33,937 nt of DNA from contig PNNF01000023.1 in NCBI GenBank assembly GCA_013824085.1, positions 1 through 33,937 of the forward strand, given 5' to 3'. Numbering within the stretch: the stretch's first letter is position 1; every line of letters starts with the position of its first letter. The position numbers and the translations under genes were made by a program. This document shows, piece after piece, positions 22,450-25,342 of this stretch. Origin of the DNA: Chlorobiaceae bacterium (GTDB lineage Bacteria; Bacteroidota; Ignavibacteria; Ignavibacteriales; Ignavibacteriaceae). The notes beneath the pieces were generated by a model. The model did not search any database. It had not been told where the DNA came from and was given only the letters and a program-made list of their open reading frames with translations.

Positions 22450-22592
22450 CATAGTGTAACTGTCAATAATTGCTTTTCGTAATCATTTCTATAATTTGAA
22501 AAAAAGCCCGTTTTTTCTTGATTATGGCAAATACAGTTCATAAAAAAGCCAAATTAAAGTTCAAAATCCAAATAAATATGAAGAATTATATC

Positions 22593-22607
22593 TGGCACAT
22601 ACTTTGC
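22593..22607 (+). promoter_or_regulatory. Sigma-54-type promoter (-24/-12) for the ferredoxin-oxidoreductase operon
   Basis: TGGCAC, five bases, then TTGC: this fits the core RpoN consensus TGGCAC-N5-TTGC without mismatch. It lies 35 nt before the GTG of the ferredoxin subunit, which would place the transcript start near 22619 and give a short leader. RpoN-type promoters need an enhancer-binding activator; no activator gene or clear tandem activator site is visible in this window. Confidence 0.6.
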
Positions 22608-22642
22608 TTTATTCTTGTAAAGAAATAAATTAAGAGATTGCC

Positions 22643-22873
22643 GTGGTCAAAGGAACAGTTGTAATATCAACAGAAAATTGTAAAGGATGTGAGCTTTGCA
22701 TTATTGCTTGTCCGCAAAACAGCTTACAACTTTCGACAAAAATAAATCCTAAAGGATATAGATTTGCAGAATTGAAGGATGAAACTTGCACGGGCTGCAC
22801 AAATTGCGCTCTGGTTTGTCCTGATGCTATAATTACAGTTTATCGAAGAAAAAAAGATCCGAAAGCAGCTTAA
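22643..22873 (+). CDS. korD: 2-oxoacid:ferredoxin oxidoreductase, delta (2x[4Fe-4S] ferredoxin) subunit
   Basis: A 76-residue bacterial-type ferredoxin with two complete cluster motifs: C13, C16, C19, C23 and C49, C52, C55, C59. It carries electrons from the TPP enzyme to free ferredoxin. The start is a GTG (MVKGTVV); no ATG stands before the first motif. It heads the four-gene operon and is followed 20 nt later by the alpha subunit. The sigma-54-type site lies just upstream. Confidence 0.9.
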   Translation: MVKGTVVISTENCKGCELCIIACPQNSLQLSTKINPKGYRFAELKDETCTGCTNCALVCPDAIITVYRRKKDPKAA

Positions 22874-22893
22874 CTATTGAGTTAATAGAAAGT

Positions 22894-23982
22894 ATGAAAG
22901 AAAATATGGAAAAAGAAATTAGATTAATGAAAGGGAACGAAGCACTTGCAGAAGCCGCTATTCGTGCGGGAATGGATGCTTACTTTGGATACCCAATCAC
23001 TCCTCAATCCGAAATTTTAGAATATCTTGAAGAACAATCACCAAAAAGAAATTGTGTTGTGCTGCAAACTGAAAGTGAGCTTGCATCTATAAATATGATT
23101 TATGGTGCGGCTGGCGCTGGTGCAAGAGTAATGACTTCTTCATCTTCTCCCGGAATCAGTTTGATGCAAGAAGGAATTTCATACATCGCTGCTGCAGAAC
23201 TTCCTTGCTTATTGGTTAATGTCGTTAGAGGCGGCCCTGGCTTAGGAACTATTCAACCTTCACAAGGAGATTATTTCCAAGCAGTAAAAGGTGGCGGACA
23301 CGGCGACTATAGACTAATAGTGCTTGCTCCTGCGACTGTTCAAGAGATGGTCGATTTTGTTTTTGAAGGATTTAGACTCGCTGAAAAATATCGTAACCCT
23401 GCTCTCATTCTTGCTGATGGTGCACTCGGACAAATGATGGAAAAAGTTGAACTGCCAGCAGAAGGTTCTCTCCCAAAGGTTGTGCCTGCTTGGGCTACAA
23501 CAGGAAAAACAAAAGATCGTGAAAGAAATGTAATTACAACTTTGCATATTCAACCTGAAGAGATGGAAGCAATGAACTTAAGGTTGGAGAAAAAATATGC
23601 TGAAATGCAATGTGAAGTTCGTTATGAAGAAATAAATACAAGTGATGCTGAAATTATTTTGGTTGCTTTCGGACTCTCTGCAAGAATCTCACAAAAAGCT
23701 TGTGACCTTGCTCGAGAAAAAGGAATTAAAGCCGGCATAATCAGACCAATGACTCTCTTCCCATATCCATCAAATATTCTTGCTGAACTCGCTGAAAAAA
23801 TTGATGCGTTTTTAGTTGTGGAAATGAATGCGGGACAAATGGTTGAAGATGTTAGATTAGCTGTCAATGGAAAAGTTCCTGTTCATTTCAAAGGTAGAAA
23901 GGGTGGAATGATTCCTACCCCTGAAGAAATTTTAGTCGAGATAGAAAAAATTGTTATACCTAAACAAGTTTTGCAAGATTAG
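22894..23982 (+). CDS. korA: 2-oxoacid:ferredoxin oxidoreductase, alpha subunit (KorA/VorB type)
   Basis: The 362-residue protein carries the pyrimidine-binding half of the TPP enzyme, beginning MKGNEALAEAAIRAGMDAYF, with GYPITPQSE, the ESELASINMIYGAAGAG block and SSSSPGISLMQEG. A C-terminal domain for transketolase-like dimer contacts follows (about 250-350). The start could be 22894 or the ATG at 22906 (MEKEIRLMK). The family covers 2-oxoglutarate and branched-chain 2-oxoacid enzymes. I favour 2-oxoglutarate because isocitrate dehydrogenase lies in the same window, but this is inference. Confidence 0.88.
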   Translation: MKENMEKEIRLMKGNEALAEAAIRAGMDAYFGYPITPQSEILEYLEEQSPKRNCVVLQTESELASINMIYGAAGAGARVMTSSSSPGISLMQEGISYIAAAELPCLLVNVVRGGPGLGTIQPSQGDYFQAVKGGGHGDYRLIVLAPATVQEMVDFVFEGFRLAEKYRNPALILADGALGQMMEKVELPAEGSLPKVVPAWATTGKTKDRERNVITTLHIQPEEMEAMNLRLEKKYAEMQCEVRYEEINTSDAEIILVAFGLSARISQKACDLAREKGIKAGIIRPMTLFPYPSNILAELAEKIDAFLVVEMNAGQMVEDVRLAVNGKVPVHFKGRKGGMIPTPEEILVEIEKIVIPKQVLQD

Positions 23983-23990
23983 GAGAAGTG

Positions 23991-24770
23991 ATGAAAGAAA
24001 ATCAAAATTTAGATGATATGGAAATAGTATTTCAAAAAACTGAAGCATTAACAGAATTAAATTTTCATTATTGCCCAGGTTGTGGACACGGAGTTGCACA
24101 TCGGTTGTTAATGGAAGTTGTTGAAGAAATGGGAATTACAGAAGATACGATTGGCGTTGCTCCTGTTGGCTGTTCTGTCTTTGCTTATCAATATATGAAC
24201 ATTGATATGCAAGAAGCTGCTCACGGTAGAGCTACTGCTGTTGCAACTGGAATTAAAAGAGTACTCCCTGACAAATATGTCTTCACTTATCAAGGCGATG
24301 GCGACTTAGCTGCTATTGGAACTGCTGAAACAATCCACACAGTAAATCGTGGCGAAAATATTTTGATAATGTTCATTAACAATGCAATCTACGGAATGAC
24401 CGGCGGACAGATGGCACCAACAACTCTCGAAGGAATGGTTACATCAACTTGTCCTTATGGAAGAGATGTAAAACATGTTGGCTCACCATTAAAAATGTCA
24501 GACCTCGTTGCTCAACTTGGTGGCGCTTGCTATGTTACTCGCCATATAGTTCACACTCCAAACGGAGTTAGAAAACTTAAGAAAGCGATCAAGAATGCGT
24601 TTGAATATCAAAAGCAAAAACTTGGTACAAGTCTGATTGAAGTTGTTACAAATTGTCCTTCAGGTTGGAAATTAACACCCCGAGAAACAATCGATTTCAT
24701 TGAAGAAAAAATGTTACCAATTTATCCTCTTGGTGATCTTAAAGTTCCAACAAATATTTCTAAAAATTGA
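23991..24770 (+). CDS. korB: 2-oxoacid:ferredoxin oxidoreductase, beta (TPP-binding) subunit
   Basis: A 259-residue subunit that binds the pyrophosphate half of TPP. The ATG at 23991 is chosen because AGGAG ends 5 nt upstream; a GTG one codon earlier is less likely. Motifs are HYCPGCGHG near residue 28, VAPVGCSVF near 58 and the TPP signature GDGDLAAIG to NNAIYGMTGGQ (about 102-139). Cysteines in CPGCG and near 150 and 215 could hold a cluster, as in related enzymes. It starts 8 nt after the alpha subunit stop. Confidence 0.9.
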   Translation: MKENQNLDDMEIVFQKTEALTELNFHYCPGCGHGVAHRLLMEVVEEMGITEDTIGVAPVGCSVFAYQYMNIDMQEAAHGRATAVATGIKRVLPDKYVFTYQGDGDLAAIGTAETIHTVNRGENILIMFINNAIYGMTGGQMAPTTLEGMVTSTCPYGRDVKHVGSPLKMSDLVAQLGGACYVTRHIVHTPNGVRKLKKAIKNAFEYQKQKLGTSLIEVVTNCPSGWKLTPRETIDFIEEKMLPIYPLGDLKVPTNISKN

Positions 24771-24778
24771 GGTAGTAG

Positions 24779-25342
24779 ATGATTAGAACAGATGAAATAA
24801 TAATAGCTGGTTTTGGTGGACAAGGAGTTTTATCTCTTGGACAGATGCTTGCATACGCAGCATTAATGGAAGGAAAAGAAACAAGTTGGATGCCTTCTTA
24901 TGGACCTGAAATGCGTGGCGGAACAGCGAATTGTATTGTAATTATTTCTGATAAAAAAATTAGTTCTCCAATAATTTCTAAATTTGATTCTGCAATAATT
25001 CTTAATCAACCTTCTTTAGAAAAATTTGAGAAAGCAGTAAAACCGGGTGGATTTATTTTTTATGAAGAATCAACCGTATTAGAGCCACCGACTCGAAAAG
25101 ATATTGAAAGCTTTAAGGTGAATGCAATTGAAGAAGCTAATCTAATGGAAAAGAAACAAGTTGCTAATATGATTATGCTTGGAGCATTTCTTGAAGTTAA
25201 GCAGTTACTAAAATCAGAAAGCATTTTGAAAGCGTTAGCAAAAGTACTCCCTGAAAGACATCATCATTTAATTCCTATGAACGAAGCAGCGTTGAGCAAA
25301 GGGAGAGAAATAATAAGTAAACTGCATCATTCTTTAGTTTGA
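24779..25342 (+). CDS. korC: 2-oxoacid:ferredoxin oxidoreductase, gamma subunit
   Basis: The 187-residue protein is the POR/KOR gamma domain, which in relatives closes over coenzyme A. It opens with EIIIAGFGGQGVLSLG and has SWMPSYGPEMRGGTANC, both highly typical. A GAGG element stands 6 nt before the ATG. It completes the delta-alpha-beta-gamma set and follows the beta subunit by 8 nt. Confidence 0.9.
   Translation: MIRTDEIIIAGFGGQGVLSLGQMLAYAALMEGKETSWMPSYGPEMRGGTANCIVIISDKKISSPIISKFDSAIILNQPSLEKFEKAVKPGGFIFYEESTVLEPPTRKDIESFKVNAIEEANLMEKKQVANMIMLGAFLEVKQLLKSESILKALAKVLPERHHHLIPMNEAALSKGREIISKLHHSLV

Follow-up and report, generated by a model that had tools for sequence, protein, structure and literature searches.

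The operon and its probable promoter element

The window, by which we mean the whole stretch of 33,937 nucleotides that was analysed, carries a four-gene operon at 22643-25342 in the order delta-alpha-beta-gamma, together with a -24/-12 element and two upstream dyads (Table 1). The aligned start codon is ATG in most relatives, against GTG in the window. The preliminary description had called this a kor operon. Its assignment to a 2-oxoacid:ferredoxin oxidoreductase was retained; however, the alpha subunit cleared the NCBIfam cut-off for VorB, a branched-chain 2-oxoacid enzyme name, and no Kor model, so the "kor" label is to be taken loosely. Like the VorB subfamily (NCBIfam NF005507), the locus has an alpha subunit above the cut-off, and its genes for alpha, beta, gamma and the ferredoxin form a single operon; unlike the subfamily, the beta, gamma and ferredoxin subunits fell under the NCBIfam cut-offs shown. 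The best reading of the alpha-subunit profile is thus a VorB-type 2-oxoacid:ferredoxin oxidoreductase, for which branched-chain 2-oxoacids are putative substrates. A search of the open-licence literature for ketoisovalerate ferredoxin oxidoreductase returned none among the matches listed.

Table 1. Predicted genes and regulatory features of the oxidoreductase locus
Feature	Position	Strand	Basis
Distal dyad, weak copy ATTTCTATAATTTGAAAA, putative enhancer-binding-protein site	22485..22502	+	pair model
Proximal dyad, strong copy TTTGCCATAATCAAGAAA, putative enhancer-binding-protein site	22514..22531	-	15.4 bits
-24/-12 element TGGCAC-N5-TTGC, predicted sigma-54 promoter	22593..22607	+	sequence match, conservation
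Predicted transcript start	22619..22620	+	sigma-54 geometry (general knowledge) and A at motif position 28
Ferredoxin-like (delta) subunit, two 4Fe-4S motifs, GTG start	22643..22873	+	
Alpha subunit, 2-oxoacid:ferredoxin oxidoreductase, VorB type	22894..23982	+	540.5 bits vs cut-off 399
Beta subunit, thiamine diphosphate binding	23988..24770	+	NCBIfam matches below cut-offs
Gamma subunit	24779..25342	+	NCBIfam matches below cut-offs

We located TGGCACATACTTTGC on the forward strand at 22593-22607, with 35 nt from its last base to the GTG at 22643, which confirmed both the mismatch-free TGGCAC-N5-TTGC and the distance to the start codon described earlier. TAnnTTTG-type promoters, said to occur elsewhere in the window, were counted 52 times against 53.4 expected, and this claim was not borne out. 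The GG of the sigma-54 -24 region lies within TGGCAY at the window site and in 16/16 nearest orthologues. The -12 GC, 10 bp from the GG, is present in the window as TTGC; the spacing is kept in relatives, with the C in 10 of 36 different oxidoreductase sites. With the T of TGG as position 1, motif position 28 is A in 27/36 of these sites and corresponds to 22620 in the window, adjoining the predicted 22619.

The expected number of TGGCAC-N5-TTGC matches in the window was 0.05, and 5 of 100 dinucleotide shuffles held one. Across the source genome (2,654,925 bases, 75 contigs), we found one exact match on the forward strand, none on the reverse strand and none in a reversed control. Chance alone would give ~1 to 4 (window shuffle rate or base composition, scaled), so the exact match by itself is not significant genome-wide. 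With its single hit, the genome scan for exact sites that had been proposed was uninformative as regards a regulon, and the relaxed core was needed. The significance of the site comes from its conservation and placement, not from the exact match.

Conservation of the core among KorA loci

KorA matches were obtained in 31/31 genomes. The window's family comprises 19 genomes, and 16 of them (source included) have an orthologue inside the window's KorA clade; TGGCAY-N5-TTG stands 45-66 nt before the start in all 16. As for the three other family genomes, the KorA of G018 falls in the hairpin group described below, that of G014 is distant (54% identity), and the G013 locus is without a ferredoxin gene. 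The nearest named relatives were MAGs called Ignavibacteria, Ignavibacteriaceae or Bacteroidetes; 77 of 80 named loci were readable, 22 of which carry TGGCAY-N5-TTG and one more TGGTAC.

We then placed the sites on a KorA tree of 106 rows, source included (101 different; some G-handle and named rows are the same record). The results showed TGGYAY-N5-TTG before the operon in 39/42 rows of one clade (SH-aLRT 98) and in 0/64 rows elsewhere, a distribution for which one gain and two losses are sufficient. The predicted conservation in relatives is thereby borne out, in the nearest family orthologues as in the clade. Around the 36 different oxidoreductase sites the flanks are hardly conserved, and motif position 6 is C or T in 36/36; since these sites were chosen by TGG[CT]A and TTG, those letters are not independent evidence in this count. 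A functionless chance hit, to which the single exact genome match (not above chance expectation) would be no obstacle, is scarcely credible when the core holds the same place in the orthologues and clade rows amid unconserved flanks, and we rejected a chance match on this conservation, barring a start alignment that is mistaken in all rows.

In a neighbouring KorA clade we observed a terminator-like hairpin (GGTTAC...GTAACC, then T) directly before the ferredoxin start, found by regular expression in 24/106 rows. In 18 hand-picked, aligned leaders (including L030:1123-1222, L080:2620-2719, L084:2629-2728, L099:2620-2719 and L107:2632-2731), 9/11 predicted pairs were changed on both sides. Lying so close to the start, the hairpin is more suggestive of attenuation than of the terminator of an upstream gene.

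The core elsewhere in the genome and the sigma-54 consensus

With the relaxed core, the search for further sites that had been suggested was productive: TGGCAY-N5-TTG occurs 38 times in the source genome, against 11 in the reversed control. Intergenic positions account for 14/38 of these sites, against 3/26 of the N6-spaced equivalent (Fisher p 0.02), and an ORF start lies 35-63 nt downstream of 12 N5 sites, against 1/26 N6 sites (mechanical ORFs; Fisher p 0.006), the N5 stretches being shorter than the N6 stretches so that some ORFs could be cut. The operons headed by the core include a flagellar operon with fliL, fliM and flhA, a second with fliF, hydG-hydE, a group A6 [FeFe] hydrogenase operon and hsp20-dnaK; the core also precedes a cytochrome c gene directly after an enhancer-binding protein gene, and a gene run containing another enhancer-binding protein. 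Against the reversed control, the counts in other genomes were 33 vs 23 (G001), 72 vs 80 (G007) and 105 vs 41 (G009), so G001 and G007 are not clearly enriched; 24/32 fetched G001 sites were called intergenic, often reading TTGG.

Individual loci showed features of their own. The promoter of the group A6 operon (L254:231-10592, G000:C6) is without the dyad pair; a gene for a kinase-related Fe-S protein and a number of receiver-like genes follow downstream. At L255:6997-9869 and L260:1906-10269, an enhancer-binding protein gene adjoins TGGCAY-N5-TTG or lies in the same gene run, the genes concerned being the cytochrome c gene and, in the run, GcvH-like, Fe-S and other genes. A kinase-like gene before an enhancer-binding protein appears split into ORFs of 141 and 76 aa at L264:4568-5285 (G000:C45), perhaps by a frameshift or an assembly error. 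At L265:4130-7846 (G000:C68), a 1239-aa protein adjoining an enhancer-binding protein gene begins with LGLDLGVSSIGWAI, residues that we take to resemble the RuvC-I start of Cas9.

Flagellar operons of the fliL/fliM kind are classical sigma-54 targets. FliM was found in 20/31 genomes (8, 7 and 5 across three families), and in 20/20 loci TGGCAY-N5-TTG stands 555-618 nt before the FliM match, which is the place of the fliL promoter in the source genome. This identifies the core as sigma-54, with the -12 C relaxed here. HydG, the maturase of [FeFe] hydrogenase, was sought in the 31 genomes, matched in 16 and full-length in 11 (the source, three more of its family and seven of two other families), and TGG[CT]AY-N5-TTG lies 46-95 nt before the HydG match in 11/11 of these loci (TGGCAY 3, TGGTAY 8).

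The base after TTG was A in 17, C in 10, T in 9 and G in 0 of the 36 oxidoreductase sites, and A in 13, T in 3, C in 2 and G in 2 of the 20 fliL sites; with 3/11 hydG sites, C follows TTG in 15/67 sites overall. The TTGC reported earlier is thus correct for the window itself, but the conserved core is TGGCAY-N5-TTG and the final C is not kept, which is unusual for sigma-54 and means that the exact consensus would miss most such sites. The window site resembles sigma-54 promoters in TGGCAC and TTGC, N5 spacing, 5' leader length and upstream dyads, and the source genome resembles sigma-54 systems in having rpoN and enhancer-binding proteins; the difference lies in the base after TTG, mostly A or T and seldom C across relatives, fliL and hydG. 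A 2025 sigma-54 regulon survey gives the consensus TGGCAC-N5-7-TTGCT and reports chaperone genes as sigma-54 targets in Bacteroidota (PMC12316311), and the consensus is also given as TTGGCATNNNNNTTGCT (PMC6615313). Neither "Ignavibacteri" nor "ferredoxin" occurs in the survey's main text (PMC12316311). In the open-licence literature, we found neither RpoN of Ignavibacteria nor sigma-54 control of this oxidoreductase described, and no paper that brings sigma54, FeFe hydrogenase and enhancer binding protein together; a paper that mentions oxoglutarate ferredoxin oxidoreductase alongside sigma54 deals, judging by its title, with cold shock.

The presence of rpoN, on which the original proposal depended, was confirmed: the genome encodes a single RpoN in which the activator-interacting, core-binding and DNA-binding domains (AID, CBD and DBD) are all found; it carries the box ARRTVAKYRESL, and its residues 6-482 align to a solved sigma-54 chain. 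The rarity of the -12 C, the sigma-54 hallmark, could mean that TGGCAY-N5-TTG is read by another sigma factor or regulator. We consider this highly improbable, as GG and TTG are spaced as in sigma-54 promoters, the core precedes the fliL and fliF operons and hydGE and adjoins enhancer-binding protein genes, and RpoN was detected in 30/31 genomes, the sole miss being 81% complete.

Upstream dyads and the proposed activation

Counts of upstream k-mers and perfect dyads were not above shuffles. Some gapped pairs upstream were slightly high, mostly A/T-rich, and inspecting these led to an 18-base dyad, usually present twice per promoter, with the consensus CTTCTCAAAATTGGGAAG over 57 sites and the pattern nTTnYCRnWWWYRRGAAn. 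We analysed the 35 upstream regions that were long enough (one of the 36 was dropped). When the spacing was allowed to vary from 20 to 45 bp, the best pair was 31 or 33 bp apart in 20/35 regions, compared with 21/210 shuffles; the p-value of this comparison overstates the significance because the rows are related. In a leave-one-out test excluding near-identical regions (spacing 29-33), 29/35 regions beat the 350-shuffle maximum of 10.0, the full model being used to score the shuffles. In 26 of these 29 regions, the start of the distal copy falls at -96 to -100 (15) or -106 to -110 (11), positions that differ by one helical turn. Six regions failed: L047 has no copy of at least 7 bits, and five have single copies elsewhere or other spacings. 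Oxidoreductase operons without the promoter gave 0/13 above 7.5 (11 from two other families, 2 from the window's family).

In the window, the pair reaches a score of 18.1. Its proximal copy is strong and lies 79 nt ahead of the TGG, measured to the T; its distal copy is weak and scores higher when shifted one base on the reverse strand (22486-22503; single score 10.9). By sequence, such dyad pairs would supply the upstream activator sites of a sigma-54 promoter. Like the paired activator sites of the NtrC, NifA, NorR and FhlA type, the window dyads lie about three helical turns apart, their centres being about 97 and 125 bp upstream of the predicted start. We know of no box of such activators that nTTnYCRnWWWYRRGAAn matches.

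A real sigma-54 site could still be accompanied by a second, housekeeping promoter giving most of the transcript, as the operon is metabolic and a weak sigma-70-like match lies at 22496-22525. That match, however, overlies the dyads and is not conserved as such, sigma-70-like matches number 1 against 1.5 in shuffles, and the window has no more Bacteroidetes-type -7 boxes than chance would give, which together make a dominant housekeeping promoter unlikely.

Upstream of hydG, the dyad scores 10.4 bits or more in 11/11 loci and reaches 12.6 bits in 9. Random 200-nt sequences reached 9 bits in 5.8% and 13 bits in 0.4% of cases, which are low estimates because the model ignores A/T runs, and the hydG dyad has these. 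The two other families have the dyad before hydG and lack it at the oxidoreductase. Among 13 other sigma-54-type sites of the source genome scored for the dyad pair, L252 reached 16.4, hydG 8.7 (one strong copy) and the rest at most 6.5. The exact dyad pattern gave 7 matches in the source genome and 7 in the reversed control; only the oxidoreductase and hydG copies have the core behind them. Perhaps one activator, or close kin, is common to the oxidoreductase and hydG-hydE promoters. At L252:925-939 (G000:C5), a TGGCACTCATTTTGT site has the 16.4 pair nearby and the next ORF ~390 nt away, and may possibly be a third target of the same activator.

We identified 11 PF00158 matches in the source genome, 7 of them strong enhancer-binding proteins, with a receiver domain in 5, a PAS domain in 1 and neither in 1; all 7 carry a GAFTGA-like motif, which reads GAFTDA in 2. 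There was no PF00158 match on the window's contig C23, and no match to the 7 activators turned up in 12 stretches surrounding hydG in 8 genomes or, in 2 of those genomes, the oxidoreductase. By orthology, the activators on C10, C7, C26 and C38 are candidates, none favoured over another: all four are reciprocal best hits in both G001, which has oxidoreductase dyads and no HydG match, and G027, which has the dyad at hydG only.

The lack of a neighbouring activator gene in these stretches, together with the AT-rich dyad, would also suit sites of a repressor or a global DNA-binding protein. Against this, the dyads accompany the promoter, with 0/13 promoterless oxidoreductase loci passing the shuffle maximum, and the two positions of the distal copy, which differ by one helical turn, and a pair spacing of mostly 31 or 33 bp both argue for activator enhancers; we regard the repressor-type reading as a minority possibility to be kept in mind.

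Taken together, 22593-22607 is very probably a genuine sigma-54 promoter, since close relatives retain the site plus paired activator-like sites and the latter also stand before a hydrogenase-assembly gene. We put at roughly 85% the full reading, drawn from sequence comparison, that it is the RpoN promoter of the four-gene operon, opened through looping by an enhancer-binding protein at the dyads. RNA polymerase with RpoN would wait at 22593-22607 as a closed complex, and the enhancer-binding protein would occupy 22485-22502 and 22514-22531, contact the promoter by DNA looping and open it through ATP hydrolysis once its signal arrives. The same activator or close kin would probably also open the hydG-hydE promoter and tie the ferredoxin-reducing enzyme to [FeFe]-hydrogenase assembly. 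We infer the dyad binding, the looping, the signal and the single protein for both operons, as well as the control by an external signal that had been proposed at the outset. A broader reading, evenly balanced in our judgement, would combine an Ignavibacteria sigma-54 of relaxed -12 (TGGCAY-N5-TTG, then A, T or C) with one enhancer-binding protein at paired TTnYCR-RRGAA dyads, switching a ferredoxin-linked module (the oxidoreductase in one clade, hydGE in three families); the oxidoreductase would have joined the regulon once, and the neighbouring clade would have the covarying terminator-like hairpin instead.

New here are the test across the clade, the pairs of activator-like sites, the connection to hydG and the relaxation of the -12 base. 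Because of the last of these, standard-consensus searches would undercount sigma-54 promoters in Ignavibacteria. Sigma-54 promoters do not fire without an activator, so such control would place 2-oxoacid oxidation, and perhaps also hydrogenase assembly, under a strict signal gate in a bacterial group that has received little study; which signal the activator answers to would become a testable question.
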